The position numbers and the translations under genes are program-made. The notes under the pieces were generated by a model. The model saw only the letters and a list, made by a program, of their open reading frames with translations. It did no database searches and was not told where the DNA came from. From Gammaproteobacteria bacterium (GTDB lineage: Bacteria > Pseudomonadota > Gammaproteobacteria > Thiohalomonadales > Thiohalomonadaceae), in NCBI GenBank assembly GCA_026196575.1, contig JAPHSX010000018.1, positions 1 through 50,461 on the forward strand: a stretch of DNA of 50,461 nt, written 5' to 3'. This document shows, in pieces, positions 35,010-46,087 of this stretch; positions within the stretch are counted from its first letter, which is position 1; each line of letters opens with the position of its first letter.

Positions 35010-35924
35010 ATGAACGAAGATCGACCTAGCGGAGCCGCCCAGGAGGGGCGGCCCCGCAACTGGCTGGAGCGTATCGGCCAGATTCTTGCCGCGGAACCCA
35101 GGGACAAGGAGGAGCTGTTGCAGATGCTAAAGGATGCGCAGCGGCGCAACCTGCTGGATCGCGAGGCGGTTGGCATGATCGAGGGGGTGCTGGACGTCTC
35201 CGAGATGCAGGTGCGGGACATCATGATCCCGCGCTCACAGATGGAGATGATCGAGCGCGACGCCTCTCTGGCGGAGTTTCTGCCGATCATCATCGACTCG
35301 GCCCACTCCCGTTTTCCGGTGATTGGCGAGAGCAAGGATGAGGTGGTGGGGATCATCCTCGCCAAGGATCTGCTCCCCTACGCCGCGCAGCGCGACGGCA
35401 GTGAATTCAATATGCGCGACCTGCTGCGCCCGGTGATGGTGGTGCCGGAGAGCAAACGGCTCAATGTGATGCTCAAGGAGTTTCAGACCAGCCGCAACCA
35501 CATGGCCATCGTGGTGGACGAGTATGGCGGTGTCGCCGGTCTCGTTACCATCGAGGATGTGCTGGAGCAGATCGTCGGCGAGATCGAGGATGAACACGAT
35601 ATTGACGCCGATGAGAGCTACATCCTCCCCGCCAGGGAGGGGCACTTTTCGGTGCGCGCCCTCACCCCCGTGGAGGAGTTTAATGAGTTCTTCAAGAGCC
35701 AGCTCAGCGATGAGGAGTTCGATACCATCGGTGGTCTGGTGTTGAGTGCCTTCGGCCGCATGCCCAAGCGGGGTGAGTTGGTCGACCTGGCGGGTTTCCG
35801 CTTTGTCGTGCAGCGCGCCGACAATCGCCGCGTCCACCTGCTGGATGTCAGTCCGGCCCCCGAACCGGCCGCGGCCGGAAATGGCGAGGATGGCGGCCCG
35901 CTTGATGAATCTCCGCACGGCTGA
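35010..35924 (+). CDS. corC: CBS-domain protein CorC/YbeX
   Basis: A 304-residue cytosolic protein with two CBS domains (about 65-190, [17 protein letters not shown] and [20 protein letters not shown]-type blocks) and a C-terminal transporter-associated CorC/HlyC domain (about 205-285, [20 protein letters not shown]). It is linked to magnesium and cobalt efflux and, in E. coli, to ribosome function. It lies in the conserved order before lnt, which it overlaps. Confidence 0.95.
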
Positions 35925-37446
35925 GGCGCGCCCGCTCTTCATTGCCCTAGTGGCCGGGGCGCTGCTGCCCCTGGCCTTTGCCCCCTTCGGCCTCTACCCC
36001 CTGGCCCTCCTCTCCCCCGCCATCCTCTTCGCGCTCTGGCGTGAGGTCACCCCTGCACAGGCCACCTGGCGCGGCTTTCTCTTTGGCCTCGGCCAGTTTG
36101 GTGTCGGCGTCTCCTGGGTCTATGTGGCGATCCACGACTTCGGCCATTCGTCCTTTATCGTTGCGGCGCTGTTGACCCTGATGTTTGTCGCGCTGCTGGC
36201 CGCCATTCCGGCACTGGTCGGCTATCTGGTCACGCGTCTGCGCCGCGGGCGTGGCGTCGAGGAGTGGCGTTTGGCCCTGCTCTGGCTGCCCGCCTGGTGG
36301 ACGCTTGGCGAATGGTTGCGCGGCTGGCTCTTTACCGGCTTTCCCTGGCTCAATCTCGGTTACAGCATGATCGATGCCCCCCTGGCGGGCTATGCACCGC
36401 TGCTGGGGGTTTACGGTGTAACGCTGGCCGTGGCCCTGAGTGCCGGGGCACTGCTCTGGCTGTGGCAGGAACCGCGCCGTGGCTGGCGGCTGGCACTGCC
36501 ACTGCTGCTTGTGCTGTGGGGCACAGGCTCGCTACTGGGGCGCATCGAGTGGACCACCCCGGTGGGTGAGCCGATTCGGGTCACCCTCATCCAGGGCAAC
36601 GTACCGCAAATCACCAAGTGGGACCCGGAGCAGATCCGTGTGCGCCTGCAGACCTATGCCGACCTGACACGCCCGCACCTGGGCAAGAGTGACCTTGTCA
36701 TCTGGCCGGAAAATGCCATCACCGTCTTCTACCACGACATCGCCGATGACTATTTCGCCCCACTTGCCGAGGAGGCCCGCGCCAGCAACACCGATATTAT
36801 CCTCGGCGTGCCCGAACTCGACGCCGACGGCCAGCGCTACTACACCACCATGATGAGTCTCGGCCGCCACCACGCCTTCTATCGCAAACGCCATCTGGTG
36901 CCGTTTGGTGAGTTTGTCCCGCTGGAGGGGGTGCTGCGTGGCCTGGTCGACTTCTTTGATATGCCGATGTCGAGCTTTAATCCCGGTAGCCGGCAACAGC
37001 CGCTGCTGCAGGCCGCGGGCCACAAAATCGCCGCCACCGTCTGCTATGAAGACGCCTTTGGTGAGGAGCTGATCGACTTTTTGCCCGCCGCTACCCTGCT
37101 GGTCAACGGCAGCAACAACGCCTGGTATGGCGACTCCCTCGCCCCCCACCAGCACTTGCAGATTTCACGCATGCGGGCACTGGAGACGGGGCGGCCGATG
37201 CTGCGGGCCACCACCAACGGGATCTCTGCCATTATCAATCAGGATGGAGATGTTGTGACAAAGTCCAGACAGTTCGAGAGAATGACATTGCACTCGACCG
37301 TCCAGGCAATGCAGGGGGCCACGCCGTATAGTATATATGGGAATATATTACTTCTGATTATTCTAGGAGGCGCAGTGGTAAGTGTGGTGCTCAGTAAAGG
37401 CAACCTGCGAACAAGATGTCATGGCAAGTGTGGTAACGCAAAATGA
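35905..37446 (+). CDS. lnt: Apolipoprotein N-acyltransferase
   Basis: Lnt of about 513 residues, adding the third acyl chain to lipoproteins after Lgt and LspA. Hydrophobic segments form the N-terminal half, and a nitrilase domain follows with the triad Glu269 (WPENAI), Lys328 (KRHLVPFGEF) and Cys380 (TVCYEDAF). The start is uncertain: 35881 and 35890 are also possible, all inside corC. GC falls from about 68% (37141-37200) to about 38% (37321-37380) by hand count, so the last 60 or so codons look foreign. Its stop overlaps the next gene as ATGA. Confidence 0.94.
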   Translation: MNLRTAEARPLFIALVAGALLPLAFAPFGLYPLALLSPAILFALWREVTPAQATWRGFLFGLGQFGVGVSWVYVAIHDFGHSSFIVAALLTLMFVALLAAIPALVGYLVTRLRRGRGVEEWRLALLWLPAWWTLGEWLRGWLFTGFPWLNLGYSMIDAPLAGYAPLLGVYGVTLAVALSAGALLWLWQEPRRGWRLALPLLLVLWGTGSLLGRIEWTTPVGEPIRVTLIQGNVPQITKWDPEQIRVRLQTYADLTRPHLGKSDLVIWPENAITVFYHDIADDYFAPLAEEARASNTDIILGVPELDADGQRYYTTMMSLGRHHAFYRKRHLVPFGEFVPLEGVLRGLVDFFDMPMSSFNPGSRQQPLLQAAGHKIAATVCYEDAFGEELIDFLPAATLLVNGSNNAWYGDSLAPHQHLQISRMRALETGRPMLRATTNGISAIINQDGDVVTKSRQFERMTLHSTVQAMQGATPYSIYGNILLLIILGGAVVSVVLSKGNLRTRCHGKCGNAK

Positions 37447-38294
37447 TAAACAGTGAACACCAACTGGTCTCTATCGGCATGCCGATTTATAACGAAGAAA
37501 GGTTTCTTCGCGTCGCGCTGGATGCCATTGTGGCGCAGGATTACCCAAATATTGAACTGATTATCTCTGATAATTGCTCCACGGATGGCTCGGCAAATAT
37601 CTGCCAGGAATATGCAAGGAAATATGAATGGATCACCTATCATCGTTATGAAAGCAACACCGGTCCTGCAAGGAATTTTTCCCATGTGCTCAATGCGTCT
37701 AGGGGTAAATATTTTATGTGGGCCGCGGGTCATGACCGGTGGGACGCCAACTATATTCATGCATGCGTGAAGATGTTGGAGAAGCACCCGCAGGCGGCCA
37801 TTGCCTATGGTAGTTCAGTCTGGATCGATGAACGTGGTGGTTTGTATGGGCGGGAATCCGGCTACTCCGATACCCGTGGCATGAATGAGGTGGCACGCTA
37901 TTTCACCGTGCTTTGGGGGAATATGCATCCAATTCTTGGTGTGATTCGCAAAGAGTACATTATGCATTCTCCGCTGCTGAATATGGTGGGTTCCGATCTT
38001 GTGATGCTGAGCAGGTTGTCACTGATTGGGGATTTCTTGCATGTGTCTGATAGCTGCTGGTATCGGCGCGAATTTCGTGCGGAGAGCAGTTATGGGGATA
38101 AGTTGAAGCGTTACAAAAGCGATAGCTACGGTCTTGCGAATACCCGTGTCAGTAAATTGTTTCCGTTGCTGCAACTCCCTTTTGAGCTTGTGAGGGTGGT
38201 ATGGGGGGCGAACCTCGCAGTGGTGACCAAGGTGATGATATTGCTGTTGCTGTTACCATCATTTCCCGCCAGGTATTTTGCGGCAAAACGCTGA
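37443..38294 (+). CDS. Family 2 glycosyltransferase
   Basis: A 283-residue GT-A glycosyltransferase: VSIGMPIYNEERFL at the start, IISDNCSTDGS as the nucleotide-sugar-binding block and AAGHDRWD in place of the usual DXD. A hydrophobic stretch near residues 245-275 probably anchors it to the membrane. It starts inside the lnt stop (ATGA), so it is likely read from the lnt message. Codon use is AT-richer than in lnt. Acceptor unknown; the convergent nucleotide-sugar genes next to it suggest the donor. Confidence 0.9.
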   Translation: MINSEHQLVSIGMPIYNEERFLRVALDAIVAQDYPNIELIISDNCSTDGSANICQEYARKYEWITYHRYESNTGPARNFSHVLNASRGKYFMWAAGHDRWDANYIHACVKMLEKHPQAAIAYGSSVWIDERGGLYGRESGYSDTRGMNEVARYFTVLWGNMHPILGVIRKEYIMHSPLLNMVGSDLVMLSRLSLIGDFLHVSDSCWYRREFRAESSYGDKLKRYKSDSYGLANTRVSKLFPLLQLPFELVRVVWGANLAVVTKVMILLLLLPSFPARYFAAKR

Positions 38295-38311
38295 GTGAGC
38301 ATGACTTTCAG

Positions 38312-39202
38312 GTGAGCATCCACGCCGCAGTGAAAAGAATATTAAATTTATCGAAACGAGCATTCGTTCTGCTGGCGATCGCTTATGTCGGGTATTTTGC
38401 CTTGACGTCAAGGGAGTTGCTGTTTGGCCTGTTTACAACGGCGAATCCCATGTTTGTTTTCCTGAGTCTGCTTTGTTGGGTGCTGGCGCATTTCATTATT
38501 CCCGCGTTTACGGTGCGCGCTATGAGTGGATTCTCAACTTCATTAAGTTATCGTGAAGCCTTTCATATTCACGCCAGCAGACTTCCCGCAAAGTACCTGC
38601 CAGGAGGCATTTGGCATACGGTCGCAAGGGCTGCGGATTATAAGAGTAAAAATATCTCTACAACGGGTATTGGTTATTATTTGTTGCTGGAGCACCTGGT
38701 GGCTGCGGCGGTGACACTGTTCGTTGGCGGAGGCATTGTATTAACGGTTGGTACGGTCAGTGGAAACTGGCTGGGGCTGATTCAAGTGATTGTTGCTGCC
38801 GCCGGCATTGCGCTGTTTTTGCTGCCGCAAGCACTTGTGTTAATCAGGCCGTACAGGGTGCATGCGATCTCACTTGGTGGTTATATTCAAGGCGTAGCAC
38901 TGGTTATGGTTTTTTGGCTGGCTGCTGCCGCCGCCTTTGTGTTTTTTATCAAGGCGTTTGATGTCCTGACGGCTGATTATTCGATGATTGATATGGGAGG
39001 GATCTATATCTTCTCCTGGGGTATAGGCTTTGTGGCAATTTTCGCCCCTCAGGGGATTGGTGTCACGGAGTTTGTCTCGGGCAGCCTGTTGCGCCCGGAT
39101 ATTCCACTTGGCAGTTTTATGGTTCTTTTGGCCAGTTTCCGCATAAATGTTTTCTTGGCGGATATGGCAACATGGATGATCTCCTTGAAATGGCGTGCTT
39201 AG
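38312..39202 (+). CDS. Polytopic membrane protein, LPG-synthase TM / UPF0104-like
   Basis: About 296 residues with seven or eight hydrophobic segments. RLPAKYLPGGIWHTVARAAD and FAPQGIGVTEFVSG resemble the lysylphosphatidylglycerol-synthase membrane domain family (UPF0104), members of which are often beside glycosyltransferases and are suspected lipid or lipid-sugar transporters. The GTG at 38312 is my choice; an ATG at 38201 with GAGGG would overlap the glycosyltransferase by 94 bases. Function is not known. It converges on the next gene with 17 bases between. Confidence 0.75.
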   Translation: MSIHAAVKRILNLSKRAFVLLAIAYVGYFALTSRELLFGLFTTANPMFVFLSLLCWVLAHFIIPAFTVRAMSGFSTSLSYREAFHIHASRLPAKYLPGGIWHTVARAADYKSKNISTTGIGYYLLLEHLVAAAVTLFVGGGIVLTVGTVSGNWLGLIQVIVAAAGIALFLLPQALVLIRPYRVHAISLGGYIQGVALVMVFWLAAAAAFVFFIKAFDVLTADYSMIDMGGIYIFSWGIGFVAIFAPQGIGVTEFVSGSLLRPDIPLGSFMVLLASFRINVFLADMATWMISLKWRA

Positions 39203-39219
39203 CGTGACTTGTCGTCAGT

Positions 39220-39999
39220 CTATGATATGCGCTTTAAATAGCCATCTGGGGCAACTGTGAGTAACAATTTGTGCTGGATGCCCTTGTCGATTTCAAATTC
39301 GGGGTGGGCTTTAAGATACTCCCATACGGCGGTTTTAGGATTGTCGCCGGGTCCCCAGGGCCGATCAGGAAACATTTCCTTTGGCAAGTCCTCAATGATG
39401 GTATCGAATACGACGCAGTAACTGCCGACACTGGTCAGTACTGCATAGGCTTCCAGTTCGGCAAGGACATGCTCGTGAGTGTGGTTGGAGTCAAGGCAAA
39501 CTAAAATACGTTGGTAGTCTTTGGCTACACGTTTGACCTCTTCAATAATTTCTGGCGCGATGCTGGAACCTTGAATCATTTGAATCCGTGTGGCCATGGG
39601 ATGAGCCTCAATGGCTGCACGGTTATGGGTGCGAATATCAATGTCGATACCCAATACTTTGCGCCTGGAGTTTTTGGGATCGAGCGTACTGCCTGCATCG
39701 ATGGCATCGCACATATCCAATAGTGCCAGCATGGATGCGCTGAAAATCAACGAACCACCATGGGCAATGCCGGTCTCGATGATCAGATCTGGTTTGATTC
39801 GCCAGATGAGTTCCTGCATGGCGATCATGTCCTGTGGGTACTGGATGATCGGGCGCCCTTGCCAGGAGAAGTTGTAAGAATATTTATGCTTAAGGGTGTC
39901 TCTAACCCATATTCTTGTCAGATCTTGCATATCCCGGTCTCTAGCAAGCCCGCTAATATTGAGCATCACTTCTTCTTGAAATTCTTCATGGTGTGTCAT
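39220..39999 (-). CDS. CmcI/rhamnosyl O-methyltransferase family protein
   Basis: A 259-residue SAM-dependent methyltransferase of the cephalosporin hydroxylase (CmcI) family: the SAM-binding region IIETGIAHGGSL at 73-84, the acidic LGIDIDIR at 116-123, and LVCLDSNHTHEHV. Despite the name, most members in polysaccharide clusters are thought to O-methylate sugars. It is the last gene of the leftward sugar cluster, six bases after the acyltransferase gene. The substrate is inferred from context only. Confidence 0.82.
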   Translation of the reverse strand: MTHHEEFQEEVMLNISGLARDRDMQDLTRIWVRDTLKHKYSYNFSWQGRPIIQYPQDMIAMQELIWRIKPDLIIETGIAHGGSLIFSASMLALLDMCDAIDAGSTLDPKNSRRKVLGIDIDIRTHNRAAIEAHPMATRIQMIQGSSIAPEIIEEVKRVAKDYQRILVCLDSNHTHEHVLAELEAYAVLTSVGSYCVVFDTIIEDLPKEMFPDRPWGPGDNPKTAVWEYLKAHPEFEIDKGIQHKLLLTVAPDGYLKRIS

Positions 40000-40005
40000 G
40001 CAAAT

Positions 40006-40662
40006 CTATTTCCCATTAATAAGTGGTTTAGCAGGATTCCCAACTACTGTGACACCTGCCGGCACGTTACGGGTGACCACTGCGCCGGCACCGATTACTG
40101 CATTGGAACCAATTGAAATATGGGGCAGTACAATAGCACCAGCGCCGATAAAAACATTGTCAGCCAGTTTTACGCAGCCGCATAGGGTCGCGCCAGGTGC
40201 TATATGTGCCCCATCACCAATCTGACATTCGTGGTCGACAGAGGCAAAGTGGTTGATGATACAAGCCTTGCCGAGGCGGGCGTCAGCAGCGACATTAGCT
40301 TGGGCCAGTACTTGGCTACCAGCACCAAGATAAGCGCTTGAGCTGATCACCGCAGCAGGATGGACGAGTATCGGGATATCAAGACCATATCCGAAAAAAA
40401 ATGCTTGGATGGCTAGACGGTCATGCCCGCGGTTGCCACCAATTGCAGCAAGGCCGGCGATACCCTTCAGGTCGCCTTGTGTTTCAACCCAGCTGCGAAA
40501 GCCTGCTTCACCACGATACACCGTCACGCCCGGCAGGGCCGATGGGAGCTGCCTGTTATCGAACAAGGCAAGCACACTGCCGCTTCTGAGAGAAATAATT
40601 TCTGCCAATACCTTAGCATGGCCGGCGCTGCCCCAGAGTACGAATTTGTTGGGTTTAGCCAT
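40006..40662 (-). CDS. PglD/NeuD-type sugar O- or N-acyltransferase
   Basis: A 218-residue protein with an N-terminal Rossmann-like part (FVLWGSAGHAKVLAEII) and a left-handed beta-helix of hexapeptide repeats. ASVDHECQIGDGAHIAPGA holds His144, which aligns with the catalytic His of PglD. Its start overlaps the aminotransferase stop by eight bases. This pairing is typical of enzymes that make a 4-amino sugar and then N-acetylate it, so N-acylation is the likelier role. Confidence 0.88.
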   Translation of the reverse strand: MAKPNKFVLWGSAGHAKVLAEIISLRSGSVLALFDNRQLPSALPGVTVYRGEAGFRSWVETQGDLKGIAGLAAIGGNRGHDRLAIQAFFFGYGLDIPILVHPAAVISSSAYLGAGSQVLAQANVAADARLGKACIINHFASVDHECQIGDGAHIAPGATLCGCVKLADNVFIGAGAIVLPHISIGSNAVIGAGAVVTRNVPAGVTVVGNPAKPLINGK

Positions 40663-41764
40663 TCAGTAATTCCTTAATCACGGCGATTACACGAACTTGG
40701 TCGGCATAGTTCATATCGTGGTAGCTAGGCAAGTTGATTGCCCTATCTGGAATTGACCATGCGTGGATATTCTTGAGAACCGGATCGAACATCGGCAAGC
40801 TGGACAATGGCCAAAAGAACACCCGCGCATCGGCATTTTCGGACGCAAAGGCCGCCTGTAGGTTTTCTCGCGTGATACCGGTTTCCGGGGCGAAGACCAC
40901 CGTTGGCATCCACGCGCCATTCACTGTCCCTTTTGGTTCCGGGTTCATGCTGATCCCTGGTAGTCCTGCCAACCGCTCGCGATAGGTGGCTAGAATTTCA
41001 CGCTTTCGGCTGGTCAGTTCCTCGATGCGCTCCATCTGGGCGCAGCCGATGGCGGCCTGGATATTCGACATCTTGTATTTGAAACCGATCATGTCGGGCC
41101 AGAACTGTTTGGTTTGCCCCCTTGCCCGACCGTGGTTGCTCAAGGTGAGAACATGCTCGTAGAGTTCCGGGTCGTTGGTGACGAACATCCCCCCCTCTCC
41201 TGTCGTCAGGGTCTTGGTTCCGTGAAAGGAGAATGCCCCGAACGCCCCCATCGATCCTGCTCGCTTGCCGTGATAGACCGAGCCGATGGCCTCGGCGGCA
41301 TCTTCGATGACAGGTATGCCATGCTTTTCGCCGATTGCCAACAGACGATCCATGTCGCACAAATTACCATACAGGTGAACTGCAACGATAGCCTTGGTGC
41401 GTGGCGTAATAGCCCTCTCAACTTGCTCCGGGTCGATACACCATGAATCTTCAAGGATGTCGACAAATACCGGTTTTGCCCCAAGATTGACAATCGGCGA
41501 GGTGGTGGCAACCCAGTTGGTATCCGCCATGATGACTTCATCACCGGAACCGATACCCAATGCCGCCATTCCCATATGCAAGGCGCCGGTGCAGCTTGAG
41601 GTGGCTATGGTGTACTTAACGCCAAGATGTTCCTTGAAGGCGGCCTCGAAACGGTTGATATAGTCGTAACAATGATCGCCCCACCCGTTGGCAGTGGCAT
41701 CGGTTGCATAGCGCACTTCAAGTTCTGTAATGGATGGTTTGGTGTAGAGAATTCGACTGCTCAT
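40655..41764 (-). CDS. DegT/DnrJ/EryC1/StrS sugar aminotransferase
   Basis: A 369-residue PLP-dependent aminotransferase acting on keto-sugars of nucleotide sugars. ATSSCTGALHMGMAALGIG binds the cofactor phosphate, VIEDAAEAIGS supplies Asp155, and SFHGTKTLTTGEGGMF has the Schiff-base Lys184. The expected substrate here is the C4 (or C3) ketone of a CDP-6-deoxyhexose. The gene lies 40 bases after the C-methyltransferase gene. Confidence 0.92.
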   Translation of the reverse strand: MSSRILYTKPSITELEVRYATDATANGWGDHCYDYINRFEAAFKEHLGVKYTIATSSCTGALHMGMAALGIGSGDEVIMADTNWVATTSPIVNLGAKPVFVDILEDSWCIDPEQVERAITPRTKAIVAVHLYGNLCDMDRLLAIGEKHGIPVIEDAAEAIGSVYHGKRAGSMGAFGAFSFHGTKTLTTGEGGMFVTNDPELYEHVLTLSNHGRARGQTKQFWPDMIGFKYKMSNIQAAIGCAQMERIEELTSRKREILATYRERLAGLPGISMNPEPKGTVNGAWMPTVVFAPETGITRENLQAAFASENADARVFFWPLSSLPMFDPVLKNIHAWSIPDRAINLPSYHDMNYADQVRVIAVIKELLNG

Positions 41765-41804
41765 GGCTATTGTTTCACATAAGTCGGCGCTGGCGGAGCG
41801 GCGT

Positions 41805-43031
41805 TTAATCGAGAATCACCAGGTTGGGCACGGCAGTGACGAACTGGGTGCCTTGTGCGTTAAGTGTTGCATTTTGTTGCCTGACTTCCGTGGCGATATT
41901 CCAAGGCAGGATCAGGACGAAATCCGGTTGTTGCGCCCGCAATGCCTGTGGTGACAGGATCGGGATGTGACTGCCCGGCATAAATTTCCCCTGCTTGGCC
42001 TCTGCCGCATCGCATACAAAGGGTAACAGATCTGGTTTGATGCCGGCGTAATTGAGTAGGGTGTTGCCTTTGGCGGCGGCACCGTAGGCAGCCACTTTGT
42101 TGCCGGCACGTTTTTGTTCGATCAGGAATAGCAGCAAATCGTCTTTGACCCTGTCCGCTTTTGCCTGGAAGGTTTGATAGGTCTCAAGCGCCCGCAGGCC
42201 GCGGTCACTCTCTTCGTCAATCAGTTTGGCTACTGCCCCACCGGTCTGTCGTGGATCATCTTCGTGGCATCCATAGATGCGCAGGCTGCCACCATGAGTA
42301 GGCAGCTCTTCAGCGTGCCAGAGACGCAAACCTGCGGCTTGGAATATGCGGCTTGTGGTATGGAGCGAGAGGTAGGAGAAGTGTTCGTGGTAGACCGTGT
42401 CGAATTGGGTGTGCTCAATCAGGCGCATCAGGTGCGGGAATTCCAGGGTGATAGTGCCGCCCGGTTTGAGTGCGGCCTTGAGGCCTTTGGTGAAATCGTT
42501 GATGTCCGGTACATGGGCATAGACGTTGTTGCCCGCGATCAGATCGGCTTGTTTTCCGTCAGCGGCGAGTTGTTTGCCCAGTGCTTCGCCGAAAAATTTC
42601 CGCAGTACGGGGATGCCGAGTTGTTCCGCCGCCTTCGCCGTACTGTCGGTGGGCTCGATGCCGAGGCATGGGATACCCGCGGCGACAAAATTTCTGAGCA
42701 GGTAGCCATCGTTGGACGCGACTTCGATTACACGACTCTCACTGTTGAGACCTAACTCCTCGATCATCTTGTCCGAATAGCGCTTGGCGTGAGCCAGCCA
42801 GCTTGATGAGGTGCTGGAGAAGTAGGCGTAATCGGGGCTGAACAGCTCATCAACCTGGGCATAGTCCTCCGTCTGCACCAGCCAGCACTGGTCGCAGACC
42901 CTGACCTTGAGTGGGTAATATTTTTCGGGACGGTTCAGATCCTCTGCCGTCAGGTAGGCATTCGAGGGCGGGGCGAAGCCAAGGTCGAGAAAGGTATGGA
43001 TAAGCGGGGCTTCGCAGTGGCGACAATTCAT
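41805..43031 (-). CDS. Sugar C-methyltransferase (NovU/TylC3/EvaC type)
   Basis: A 408-residue three-part methyltransferase: N-terminal zinc site Cys3, Cys6, Cys46 and Cys49; SAM-binding domain with VIEVASNDGYLL (101-112); catalytic-type YHEHFSYL with Tyr214, His215, Glu216 and His217; and the C-terminal domain with NKVAAYGAAAKGNTLLNY. These enzymes add a methyl to carbon 3 or 5 of 4-keto-6-deoxy sugars to make branched sugars. It overlaps the epimerase gene as ATGA. Which carbon is used cannot be told from sequence. Confidence 0.88.
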   Translation of the reverse strand: MNCRHCEAPLIHTFLDLGFAPPSNAYLTAEDLNRPEKYYPLKVRVCDQCWLVQTEDYAQVDELFSPDYAYFSSTSSSWLAHAKRYSDKMIEELGLNSESRVIEVASNDGYLLRNFVAAGIPCLGIEPTDSTAKAAEQLGIPVLRKFFGEALGKQLAADGKQADLIAGNNVYAHVPDINDFTKGLKAALKPGGTITLEFPHLMRLIEHTQFDTVYHEHFSYLSLHTTSRIFQAAGLRLWHAEELPTHGGSLRIYGCHEDDPRQTGGAVAKLIDEESDRGLRALETYQTFQAKADRVKDDLLLFLIEQKRAGNKVAAYGAAAKGNTLLNYAGIKPDLLPFVCDAAEAKQGKFMPGSHIPILSPQALRAQQPDFVLILPWNIATEVRQQNATLNAQGTQFVTAVPNLVILD

Positions 43032-43579
43032 GCCGGGATTCCGTGAAAGTCGGCTGTAAGAAGAGGGTGGTGCGCGTCACGCGGCGAGAGATCGGTAACC
43101 GGTAGTGGCCAACGAATGCCGAGCCGTGGATCGTCGTGGCGCACCCCGTCCTCCGCCTCTGGGACATAGAAGGCTGTGTGAAGATAGAGTAATTCGCTCT
43201 CTTCGTCGAGTACCTGGAAACCGTGGGCACAGCCCTCCGGAATGATTAGCATGTATGCGTTTTCTGGGGTGAGCTCCTCGGCGTGCCACTTGAGGAAGCT
43301 TGGTGAGTTTCTGCGCAGGTCAATGGCGATGTCCCACACGCGGCCCCTGAGACAACGTACCAGCTTCATTTCGGCATGAGGCGGGTTCTGATAGTGCATA
43401 CCGCGCACGGCGCCAACCTTGGCGGTTCGGGAGTGGTTGATCTGCACAATGCGGCGCGAACCCAGGAGGGAGGCCAATTCGCGTTCGCAGTAGAGGCGCG
43501 TGAAGGCGCCGCGTGGATCAATGTGTGGCGTAACCTCGATCCGCATGACTCCCGGAATAGCGGTAGTGGCGATCCTCAT
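43028..43579 (-). CDS. RmlC-type 4-keto-6-deoxy-hexose 3- and/or 5-epimerase
   Basis: A 183-residue cupin of the dTDP-4-dehydrorhamnose 3,5-epimerase family; the ATG at 43579 (MRIATTAIPGVMRI) overlaps the rfbG stop, and the longer frame upstream lies in rfbG. VRGMHYQNPP holds His62 and LLYLHTAFY holds Tyr132, the residues expected for catalysis. Since the neighbours make CDP- rather than dTDP-sugars, the substrate is probably CDP-4-keto-6-deoxyglucose or its methylated form. Confidence 0.88.
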   Translation of the reverse strand: MRIATTAIPGVMRIEVTPHIDPRGAFTRLYCERELASLLGSRRIVQINHSRTAKVGAVRGMHYQNPPHAEMKLVRCLRGRVWDIAIDLRRNSPSFLKWHAEELTPENAYMLIIPEGCAHGFQVLDEESELLYLHTAFYVPEAEDGVRHDDPRLGIRWPLPVTDLSPRDAHHPLLTADFHGIPA

Positions 43580-44655
43580 TGGCGTGCCCACGCGATATTG
43601 GCTTGTCTGGCGTCCTCGATGTAGGTGGCCAACTGTTGACGGCTGATGGTCTCCCCGTCTTCCAGCTGGGCGCGATACCACTTCGCGGTGGCTGCAAGCG
43701 TGGTGTCGAGTTGCCACACCGGTTGCCAGTCGAGTGTGCGGCGTGCCTTGGCGCTGTCCAGATAGAGCAGGGTGGCCTCGTGCGGCTGCGGTGTGGAGAT
43801 GATCTCCCAGTGCATGGCAGGCCAGTGCCGGCTGAGTTTCTGCAACACCTCGGCTACGCTGCGGTTGCCTTCCGGTTCCGGGCCAAAATTCCAGGCTGCC
43901 GCGAATGTTCCGTCTTTCTCCAGCAGGCGTTGGCCAAGCATGAGATAGCCGCTGAGCGATTCCAGCACATGTTGCCAGGGACGCGTGGCTTCGGGTGAGC
44001 GAATTTCGAGGGATTGTCCCGTGGTGACGGCGCGCACCAAGTCGGGGATCAGGCGATCCTCGGACCAGTCGCCGCCGCCGATGACGTTGCCGGCGCGGGC
44101 GGTGGCGAGCAGCGGTGCATCGGGCATATTGAAGAAGGCGCTACGATAGCTGGCGGCAACCAGTTCAGCCCCGGCTTTCGAGGCGCTATAGGGATCATGG
44201 CCGCCGAGACGGTCGTTCTCGCGGTAGCCCCAGGGCCACTCCTGGTTTTCGTAACATTTGTCGGTGGTGATGGTGACGATGGCGCGCACGCTGGGCTCTT
44301 GGCGGCAGGCTTCCAGCACGTTCGCCGTTCCCATGACATTGATGGACCAGGTCTCCAGCGGCTCCCGGTAGGACCGCCTGACCAGGGGCTGGGCGGCCAG
44401 ATGGAATACGATCTCTGGCCGTGTTTCACTGAACACATGGCGGATCGCATCCACGCCGCGAATGTCGAGGCGACGATCGTCAATGGGTAATTTGAGCAGA
44501 TCCCAGTGGTTGGGCTGGCCTTCCGGTGGTAGCGAAACGCCCGTCACCTCGGCGCCGAGTTCATGCAGCCAGAGGGCGAGCCAGCTTCCCTTGAAACCGG
44601 TATGGCCGGTGAGCAGAACACGCTTGCCACGATAGATGTCGGCGAACGGTGTCAT
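43576..44655 (-). CDS. rfbG: CDP-glucose 4,6-dehydratase
   Basis: A 359-residue extended short-chain dehydrogenase that turns CDP-glucose into CDP-4-keto-6-deoxyglucose. The NAD-binding GHTGFKG (17-23), Thr131-Asp132-Lys133 and Tyr156...Lys160 (DPYSASK) are present. The match to RfbG is stronger than to RmlB: LTGHTGFKGSWLALWL and the CYEN segment are typical. It overlaps rfbF by ATGA at its start and the epimerase by ATGA at its end. Confidence 0.94.
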   Translation of the reverse strand: MTPFADIYRGKRVLLTGHTGFKGSWLALWLHELGAEVTGVSLPPEGQPNHWDLLKLPIDDRRLDIRGVDAIRHVFSETRPEIVFHLAAQPLVRRSYREPLETWSINVMGTANVLEACRQEPSVRAIVTITTDKCYENQEWPWGYRENDRLGGHDPYSASKAGAELVAASYRSAFFNMPDAPLLATARAGNVIGGGDWSEDRLIPDLVRAVTTGQSLEIRSPEATRPWQHVLESLSGYLMLGQRLLEKDGTFAAAWNFGPEPEGNRSVAEVLQKLSRHWPAMHWEIISTPQPHEATLLYLDSAKARRTLDWQPVWQLDTTLAATAKWYRAQLEDGETISRQQLATYIEDARQANIAWARQ

Positions 44656-45425
44656 TCCCAGCACTTCCAGGGTGCGTTACCGGAGTCCCATCGTTGTTCG
44701 AGGTGGGTCTTGTCGCGCAGGGTATCCATGGGTTGCCAGAATCCCCGATGCTCGAAGGCCTTGAGTTGACCCTGATTGGCGATGGCCGTCAGTGGCGCCC
44801 CTTCCCATGAGGTCTTGTCACCCTCGATGAAGTCCAGCACCTTGGGATTCAGAATAAAGAAACCACCGTTGATCCAGGCGCCATCACCCGGGGGTTTCTC
44901 CTGAAAGCCGAGCACGGCATCACCTGCGCGCACCAAGGCACCATAGCGGCCAGGAGGTTGTACTGCGGTGACGGTGGCCAGTTTGCCATGGCGCTGATGA
45001 AAATCGAGTTGGGCTGTAATGTCTATATCCGCGACGCCGTCACCATAGGTGAAGCAAAAGGCCTCGTCATTTTTGATGTATTCGGCCACACGTTTCAGGC
45101 GTCCACCGGTAAGGGTTTCGTCACCTGTATCCACCAGGGTGACTCGCCACGGTTCGGCCTTCCTTTGATGAACCTCCATTTGGTTGTTGTTCATGTCGAA
45201 GGTGACGTCGGACATGTGCAGAAAGTAGTTGGCGAAGTACTCCTTGATAACATAACCCTTGTAGCCGCAGCAGATGATGAAATCATTCACGCCATGGGCG
45301 GAATAAATCTTCATGATGTGCCATAAAATAGGACGGCCGCCAATTTCGATCATGGGCTTTGGCTTGAGGTGTGTCTCTTCGGAAATTCGGGTGCCAAGGC
45401 CACCGGCGAGAATGACGGCTTTCAT
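44652..45425 (-). CDS. rfbF: Glucose-1-phosphate cytidylyltransferase
   Basis: A 257-residue nucleotidyltransferase making CDP-glucose from CTP and glucose-1-phosphate. MKAVILAGGLGTRISEETH, KPKPMIEIGGRPILWHIM and FCFTYGDGVADID are family hallmarks. The ATG at 45425 is preferred; an in-frame ATG at 45449 would add eight residues, and neither has a clear ribosome binding site. It heads the leftward sugar operon. Confidence 0.95.
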   Translation of the reverse strand: MKAVILAGGLGTRISEETHLKPKPMIEIGGRPILWHIMKIYSAHGVNDFIICCGYKGYVIKEYFANYFLHMSDVTFDMNNNQMEVHQRKAEPWRVTLVDTGDETLTGGRLKRVAEYIKNDEAFCFTYGDGVADIDITAQLDFHQRHGKLATVTAVQPPGRYGALVRAGDAVLGFQEKPPGDGAWINGGFFILNPKVLDFIEGDKTSWEGAPLTAIANQGQLKAFEHRGFWQPMDTLRDKTHLEQRWDSGNAPWKCWE

Positions 45426-45463
45426 AGGGATAAGTCTGTTTTCACCCATGTTATTGATTGAAC

Positions 45464-45568: not shown

Positions 45569-46087
45569 TTACCGTGTCCGAGCAGAGGTGCGACGATACT
45601 TCGTCCCATGGCACTTGGGGCAGGGGGGGATGTGGCCGGTATGGTGAAAGTGCAGATGCTCGCCGCACCCCTTGCACTCCAGGGTGCCGATGCCGACGAT
45701 CTCCCCGGTGTGCCATTCGCCAAGGGCGGTGGCGCGTTGTTCCAGCCGGTCTAGTTCCAGCCGGGTCTGATCGACCATCTGCGCGAACATATCGGCCAGA
45801 CTCTGCTCCACCACCTCCAGGTCGAAGCGCAACCAGTCGCGCAGTTCGTTGCCCGACTGGTTGATGAAGTCGGCGGCATCGTGCAGGTCGCGCAGTACAT
45901 ACTCACTCACCTCTTCGGCCTCCTCGCGGCTCAGCTCCCCCAGCTCGGTGGCTTTCTCCATGGCGGCATCGACGCCGTGACGCAGCCCTTGGCCGGCTGC
46001 TGCCATGGTTTCGCGCGCGCGCTCCAGCATCAGGTTGTAGGCGACGGTCAGTTTGCTATCCAGCCCCGGAATGTTTTTGTCGCTCAT
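45569..46087 (-). CDS. ybeL: Zinc-ribbon protein YbeL (DUF1451)
   Basis: A 172-residue protein with a long, mostly helical and acidic N-terminal part (about 1-130) and a C-terminal zinc ribbon, LECKGCGEHL then PPCPKCHGTKYRR. It matches the DUF1451/YbeL family, of unknown function, which is found beside leuS in E. coli as well. It diverges from leuS, with 143 bases between. GC and codon use return to the level of the surrounding chromosome here. Confidence 0.88.
   Translation of the reverse strand: MSDKNIPGLDSKLTVAYNLMLERARETMAAAGQGLRHGVDAAMEKATELGELSREEAEEVSEYVLRDLHDAADFINQSGNELRDWLRFDLEVVEQSLADMFAQMVDQTRLELDRLEQRATALGEWHTGEIVGIGTLECKGCGEHLHFHHTGHIPPCPKCHGTKYRRTSARTR

Follow-up and report, generated by a model that had tools for sequence, protein, structure and literature searches.

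The sequence analysed here (the window) is a 50,461-nucleotide stretch from a Gammaproteobacteria bacterium of the family Thiohalomonadaceae (assembly GCA_026196575.1, contig JAPHSX010000018.1, positions 1 to 50,461). Directly behind lnt it encodes a family 2 glycosyltransferase (GT2) and a membrane protein, met from the other side by seven convergent CDP-sugar genes. With a probability of about 0.6, these ∼8 kb (37443-45449) are a horizontally acquired cassette and provide an unusual sugar for a pilin-glycosylation system, the other half of which is encoded in another part of the genome. The observations that carry this reading are the gene content of the locus, the conserved pairing of the GT2 and membrane-protein genes, the protein folds, the linkage of pilA, GT-C and glycosyltransferase genes in relatives, and the presence of that same trio in the window's own genome. 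A first-pass annotation had read the pair as making and flipping a lipid-linked sugar from one message with lnt. That reading is partly supported: its sugar-plus-flippase part is well founded though unproven, and it missed both the seven sugar genes, which belong to this cassette, and type IV pilin as the likely target.

The cassette and its two host flanks, lnt and the DUF1451 gene

The cassette and its host flanks contain the following genes:

35881-37446, plus strand: lnt, apolipoprotein N-acyltransferase, host flank (TIGR00546, 330.6 bits, cut-off 132.9; start picked by homology)
37443-38294, plus strand: GT2 glycosyltransferase, 283 residues (PF00535, E 3.4e-26), adjoining the membrane gene in relatives
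38312-39202, plus strand: predicted MprF-fold membrane protein, putative divergent UPF0104 relative, 296 residues (AlphaFold model, MprF matches, hhalign to PF03706 members)
39220-39999, minus strand: RMNT/CmcI-type O-methyltransferase, convergent with the membrane gene (PF04989, E 3.8e-102)
40006-40662, minus strand: NeuD/PglD-type sugar acyltransferase (TIGR03570, 179.9 bits, cut-off 160.8)
40655-41764, minus strand: DegT/DnrJ/EryC1/StrS sugar aminotransferase (PF01041, E 5.6e-127)
41805-43031, minus strand: keto-sugar C-methyltransferase (Methyltransf_13, 23 and 14; PF08484, E 3.6e-62; PF08421, E 3.4e-25)
43028-43717, minus strand: RmlC-type sugar epimerase (TIGR01221, 159.2 bits, cut-off 155.75)
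43576-44664, minus strand: CDP-glucose 4,6-dehydratase, DdhB/RfbG (TIGR02622, 484.5 bits, cut-off 278.45)
44652-45449, minus strand: glucose-1-phosphate cytidylyltransferase, DdhA/RfbF (TIGR02623, 478.7 bits, cut-off 300.25)
45569-46087, minus strand: DUF1451 zinc-ribbon gene, the other host flank (PF07295, E 1.1e-46)

The seven sugar genes lie on the strand opposite to the pair and end 17 bases past the membrane gene. The RmlC-type gene probably starts near 43573, because its domain begins only at residue 49. Beyond the DUF1451 gene lies leuS, named by comparison with the lnt region of a relative (L132). By hydropathy, the GT2 protein has a single hydrophobic segment, at residues 252-270 near its C terminus.

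The GT2 gene starts inside the lnt stop codon, as the first-pass annotation had observed: its ATG (37443-37445) overlaps the TGA (37444-37446) as ATGA, and its own stop lies at 38294. The 17 bases given there for the distance to the membrane gene are exact from the start chosen here, GTG 38312 (stop at 39202). This gap is start-dependent, because GTG 38330 is an equally possible start and ATG 38201, where the mechanically listed open reading frame opens, is also available. A promoter scan of 37000-39400 returned 3 sites against 3.1 expected, with neither promoters nor terminators above shuffled sequence.

Of 20 genomes of the order, the window's own alone gave a match to the membrane protein; Lnt was matched in 17 of 20 genomes searched, again including the window's own. 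The lnt regions retrieved from 11 of the 16 other genomes contain no GT2, membrane, RMNT methyltransferase or cytidylyltransferase gene. The DUF1451 gene directly follows lnt in two of them (90 bases apart in L132, ∼67 bases in L134), lies ∼1.1-1.3 kb away in L135 and 3.1 kb away in L136, and was not found within the stretch examined in 7 of the 11. GC content is 0.63-0.65 up to lnt and 0.49-0.50 across the pair and the RMNT methyltransferase gene; along the sugar genes it rises to ∼0.62 at the dehydratase before falling to 0.55 at the cytidylyltransferase, and the first part of leuS is at 0.62-0.66. The C-terminal residues of the window's Lnt are unlike those of its relatives, whose ends also differ among themselves. 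Because the two flanking genes adjoin in L132 and L134 and the eleven regions lack the pair, the island most likely entered the lnt/DUF1451 gap, and the insertion junction is the simplest source of the ATGA overlap. The same gap holds other inserts, of ∼1.3 and 3.1 kb, in L135 and L136, which may mark it as a preferred site of insertion.

The overlap could also be taken as evidence that the GT2 and the membrane protein work with Lnt, with co-translation coupling lipoprotein acylation to a sugar-lipid step. This partnership was rejected: a scan of 84,980 species yielded 79 loci with the membrane gene, lnt is near it in none of them (0/79), and none of the 11 other lnt regions has the pair. The GC drop from ∼0.64 to 0.49 at the junction and the empty sites in L132 and L134 likewise make a partnership extremely improbable. 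The lnt neighbourhood of the pair is most likely accidental, in line with the caveat of the first-pass annotation that the link may be only positional.

Linkage to type IV pilin genes in relatives and in the window's own genome

Within the class, the membrane protein was matched in 14 of 369 genomes, the window's own included. The 79 loci of the wider scan were divided by phmmer score into a near group of 51 and a distant group of 28; the exception is L106 (56 bits), placed with the near loci as the contig of L019. Culturable carriers among them are Sedimenticola hydrogenitrophicus SN1189 (L034), Alcanivorax sp. 1008 (L064) and Lysobacter silvestris AM20-91 (L051). Some sources are sampled repeatedly: L044, L055 and L106 are contigs of L016, L017 and L019, L061 and L075 belong to one genome, and L040 and L064 are close kin.

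The pair is conserved in other genomes, away from lnt. In 34 of 51 near loci the GT2 gene immediately precedes the membrane gene on the same strand, often with overlapping frames; 3/51 are cut at a contig end and 14/51 lack this GT2. Four sugar genes (ddhA, ddhB, rmlC and the C-methyltransferase gene) occur together at 22 of these 34 loci, several of the rest being truncated where the contig stops, and at 2 of the 17 near loci not scored with the GT2, both at contig edges. The RMNT methyltransferase gene is among the most constant companions of the pair (26/34). Enzymes of this RMNT/CmcI type have been described chiefly for mycobacterial glycolipids and in the synthesis of antibiotics. DegT is present in 10/34 loci with the pair and NeuD in 3/34, so the last sugar steps vary from locus to locus; elsewhere a gene of the epimerase/reductase family is recurrent. 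The membrane gene is also found with other sugar genes, encoding a GT1/GT4 family protein and methyltransferases. From the four-gene counts and these alternative loci it follows that the GT2 moves with the CDP-sugar genes and the membrane gene also with others.

Neighbour clustering and Pfam searches revealed three more recurrent families: a type IV major pilin (PF00114), a ∼640-residue protein with C-terminal TPR repeats (here GT-C/TPR), and a second GT2. In L015 and L035 all five genes follow one another on one strand, in the order pilin, GT-C/TPR, second GT2, GT2 and membrane gene, and PilB-, PilC- and PilR-like genes recur around the membrane-gene loci. At least one of the three families is present in 31 of 51 near loci versus 8 of 28 distant loci (pilin, 21/51 vs 2/28; GT-C/TPR, 25/51 vs 2/28; second GT2, 29/51 vs 8/28). 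The second GT2 is a weak marker, because it also occurs in those 8 distant loci.

In 22 of the 53 loci examined, the pilin and GT-C genes adjoin on one strand. This adjacency also holds with a different sugar cassette (L043, L066, L069, L071 and L072), and the pattern spans Gamma- and Betaproteobacteria, Desulfobacterota and Zixibacteria. Both observations bear on an alternative in which a GtrABS-like route adds the sugar to lipopolysaccharide or a different envelope glycan, and the proximity to pilA reflects a shared insertion site only. Trios of GtrB, GtrA and a GT-C enzyme are classical for O antigens (PMC11127046), and the lnt/DUF1451 gap shows that the cassette enters unrelated places. 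The persistence of the pilin-GT-C adjacency beside different cassettes argues against this route, and a shared site alone would hardly account for recurrence over such distant lineages; decoration of an envelope glycan is considered quite unlikely.

Seven loci (L031, L036, L043, L066, L069, L071 and L072) combine the membrane gene with a different cassette, comprising a GT1/GT4 protein and small methyltransferases. In L066, L069 and L071 the membrane gene stands directly behind the pilin, GT-C and polyprenyl glycosyltransferase genes, as if the cassette were exchangeable.

The link extends to whole genomes. A GT-C/TPR profile was found in 47 of 49 genomes with a near membrane gene versus 118 of 369 class genomes (one-sided Fisher p = 6e-19), where the profile was built from loci of the same scan, which favours finding GT-C there, and where up to 25 first-look candidates per genome were scored for carriers against three for the class, so that the background of 118/369 may be too low. 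The 49 genomes come from 50 of the 51 near loci (L075 was left out as sharing the genome of L061, and the genome of L046 was not covered), and the misses are the genomes of L033 and L077. Within the class searches alone, the GT-C gene is present in 10 of 14 membrane-gene genomes (p = 0.0024) and in 6 of 6 of the nearest (p = 0.001). Some genomes show a large expansion of the family, with 17 (G404, L048), 18 (G419, L063) and 23 (G430, L074) profile matches.

In the window's own genome, the sole PF00114 pilin gene lies on contig C4 and is followed in a row by two genes:

G000:C4:58851-60761: GT-C/TPR gene (36% identity to the L015 counterpart)
G000:C4:57976-58815: second GT2, candidate polyprenyl-phosphate-sugar synthase (64% identity to a relative; ArnC/DPMS/AglJ-like, two C-terminal hydrophobic segments)

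On the opposite side of the trio are genes read as PilR and PilS. With the trio on C4 and the island in the window, both halves are therefore present in one genome; because they are on different contigs, the link between them rests on relatives. A second GT-C/TPR gene (G000:C56:33703-35490) lies away from pilA.

Predicted folds of the membrane protein and its candidate partners

The label "UPF0104-like" given in the first-pass annotation fails on the single sequence and holds through relatives, profile comparison and fold. The PAKYLPGGIWH motif cited there is present at residues 92-102. Pfam and NCBIfam searches with the membrane protein gave no match at E 0.001; PF03706 (LPG_synthase_TM, curated cut-off 33.4 bits) gave none up to E 10, and the sole Pfam match was a chance one to STING_TM (0.21). 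A PDB sequence search returned one chance match only (E 0.96), and the plasmid records and viral contigs searched gave none. The near relatives L015, L016 and L018 score 18.9, 25.7 and 19.2 bits against PF03706, under the cut-off, and L017 has no match; among outer relatives, 4 of the 6 tested pass it. Three relatives that exceed the cut-off (L020, L022 and L023) are matched by the membrane protein at 32.6-45 bits in phmmer, and hhalign against four above-cut-off members gave 99.5% (E 7.5e-23, 273 columns).

An AlphaFold2 model of the membrane protein, resting on a thin alignment of 6 sequences, reached a pLDDT of 78.9 and a pTM of 0.79. Its top three Foldseek matches were all MprF structures at probability 1.00. 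With VIA-align, six MprF entries aligned at Z 17.7-20.4 (root-mean-square deviation 4.5-4.9, 279-286 residues), and the next entry at Z 5.3. Because of the relatives' PF03706 matches, the profile comparison and the modelled fold, the protein is assigned as a divergent UPF0104 relative with a predicted MprF flippase fold; because it and its near relatives miss the cut-off, it stands outside formal PF03706 membership.

The membrane protein might instead anchor or assist the GT2 at the membrane, flipping no lipid. The closeness of the two genes would suit such a role, as would the finding that a gpgF mutant still produces GlcN-phosphatidylglycerol (PMC12713373). An anchor is hard to reconcile with the 14 near loci that have the membrane gene without this GT2, in some of which it comes right after the polyprenyl glycosyltransferase gene (L066, L069, L071), or with an MprF flippase-domain fold over the full length, and this role appears very unlikely.

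The cassette could instead make a membrane glycolipid: the GT2 would attach the CDP-derived sugar to phosphatidylglycerol or diacylglycerol, and the finished lipid would be flipped by the membrane protein, as proposed for GpgSDF and HexSDF. GpgSDF of Pseudomonas aeruginosa joins a glycosyltransferase and a predicted UPF0104 flippase and makes GlcN-phosphatidylglycerol (PMC12713373), MprF, the nearest fold, flips modified phosphatidylglycerol (PMC5898192), and no acceptor enzyme lies beside the pair within the window. However, GpgS is a GT4 enzyme that works with a deacetylase, and Pfam finds no deacetylase among the nine island genes. The near loci are also rich in pilA, GT-C and polyprenyl-phosphate glycosyltransferase genes that would be superfluous for a simple glycolipid, the GT-C gene being present in 47 of the 49 carrier genomes. 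A glycolipid product is thus judged unlikely.

The second GT2 matches ArnC (1.3e-14), DPM synthase (2.8e-10) and AglJ (2e-33, under the AglJ cut-off). Its two C-terminal hydrophobic segments are the layout of polyprenyl-phosphate monosaccharide synthases, and by sequence it is a putative ArnC/DPM-like polyprenyl-phosphate glycosyltransferase. The idea that the pair both makes and flips a lipid-linked sugar keeps its support from the conserved pairing and the modelled flippase fold, though the polyprenyl-phosphate synthase is more likely this different GT2 beside pilA.

A model of the GT-C/TPR protein of L034 (19 relatives, pLDDT 86.1) matches oligosaccharyltransferases, protein O-mannosyltransferases, ArnT and PglB over residues ∼1-420 (Z 14.7-18.3) and TPR domains past residue 430. 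The GT-C reading is based on this Z-score comparison, the Foldseek list being filled by TPR proteins; a PDB sequence search gave no match up to E 0.1. Invariant positions among the 19 relatives include DD at 38-39 and EHRN at 362-365.

The first-pass annotation had further proposed a compact alternative to Wzx. This is plausible, because no Wzx of the PF01943 family was found in the window's own genome in a search for that family alone, which was positive in 13 of 14 control genomes.

Proposed pathway and its nearest known counterparts

By their families, DdhA and DdhB would make CDP-4-keto-6-deoxyglucose. The seven island genes would yield a CDP-activated 6-deoxy sugar through glucose-1-phosphate cytidylylation, 4,6-dehydration, epimerisation, C-methylation, transamination, N-acylation and O-methylation, with the later steps placed in a guessed order; their families suggest a sugar that is epimerised, C-methylated, 4-amino, N-acylated and O-methylated. 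The ArnC/DPM-like GT2 beside pilA would charge polyprenyl phosphate with a first sugar, onto which the window's GT2 would add the CDP-derived sugar in the cytoplasm. The MprF-fold protein would then flip the lipid-linked glycan to the periplasm, where the GT-C/TPR protein beside pilA would transfer it to the major type IV pilin. We infer every reaction in this scheme, together with the lipid carrier, the flipping, the acceptor and the glycan.

Several observations weigh against this scheme. The two halves sit on separate contigs, and a single GtrA (PF04138) gene, unlinked on contig C32, could do the flipping. The alignment behind the membrane-protein model is thin, and the 14 near loci without the GT2 mean that the membrane gene is not tied to this one partner. 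In 20 of 51 near loci, many of them short or cut, all three pilus-side genes are missing. The GT-C family is common (118/369) and most of its carriers have no membrane gene; therefore other flippases must serve there. Flipping of polyprenyl-linked glycans is not shown for any member of this fold in the open-licence literature examined, MprF itself being a known lipid flippase. The literature searches, limited to open-licence papers and thus no proof of absence from print, returned nothing on this pilin-glycosylation/UPF0104 system.

If the scheme holds, the genes would form a three-component glycosylation system whose flippase belongs to a new class. We give even odds to a broader proposal, in which MprF-fold (UPF0104-like) proteins form a third flippase class for polyprenyl-phosphate glycans beside SMR (GtrA) and MATE (Wzx-like) proteins and serve a widespread pilin glycosylation, with the TMTC-like GT-C/TPR protein beside pilA as transferase and exchangeable cassettes setting the glycan. 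Most UPF0104 proteins have no known cargo, and in three-component systems the flippase for polyprenyl-phosphate sugars is the step with the weakest proof (PMC11127046). Both could be put to the test in a compact genetic unit that is read out on pilin. Such a unit would also assign a function to prokaryotic TMTC-like proteins and show how pilus coats may be swapped through cassette transfer. Such coats can shield against phages, as stated for TfpO and TfpW (PMC11841053).

The closest counterparts are three-component systems such as GtrA/GtrB/Gtr-C and Citrobacter ORF15/ORF14/ORF12 (PMC11127046), which likewise combine a polyprenyl-phosphate sugar synthase, a flippase and a GT-C transferase, here read from genes. 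Their flippases are SMR-type (GtrA, Rv3789) or MATE-type proteins, for which that source describes direct proof of flipping as lacking, whereas the candidate here has an MprF/UPF0104 fold. The present system would go beyond them with a second cytoplasmic GT2, a CDP-sugar cassette and a pilin acceptor. TfpW, a known GT-C enzyme encoded with pilA, arabinosylates the pilin of Pseudomonas paraeruginosa (PMC11841053, PMC12369383); it resembles the system proposed here in its GT-C gene beside pilA, in a glycan made elsewhere in the genome and in pilin as acceptor. It differs in its sugar, D-arabinofuranose, and the extracts of these two papers mention no MprF-fold gene.

UPF0104 proteins were earlier predicted to be flippases for glycosylation (PMC5898192), and GpgF is such a predicted flippase encoded with a glycosyltransferase (PMC12713373). 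GpgSDF, which makes GlcN-phosphatidylglycerol, and HexSDF share this pairing with the window; they differ in having a GT4 enzyme and a deacetylase, a phospholipid acceptor and, in the operon as described, no pilin or GT-C gene (PMC12713373). The likeness to the MprF flippase domain (PDB 6lvf, 7duw, 9goe) runs along nearly the whole 296 residues of the modelled protein. Unlike MprF, the window's protein has no lysyl-phosphatidylglycerol synthase domain, shares 13-16% identity with it and would be expected to carry a glycan lipid. Finally, the GT-C domain followed by TPR repeats recalls the animal TMTC proteins, whose prokaryotic homologues have been noted as poorly characterised (PMC7801869); unlike those of TMTC proteins, the GT-C/TPR genes described here stand beside type IV pilin genes.

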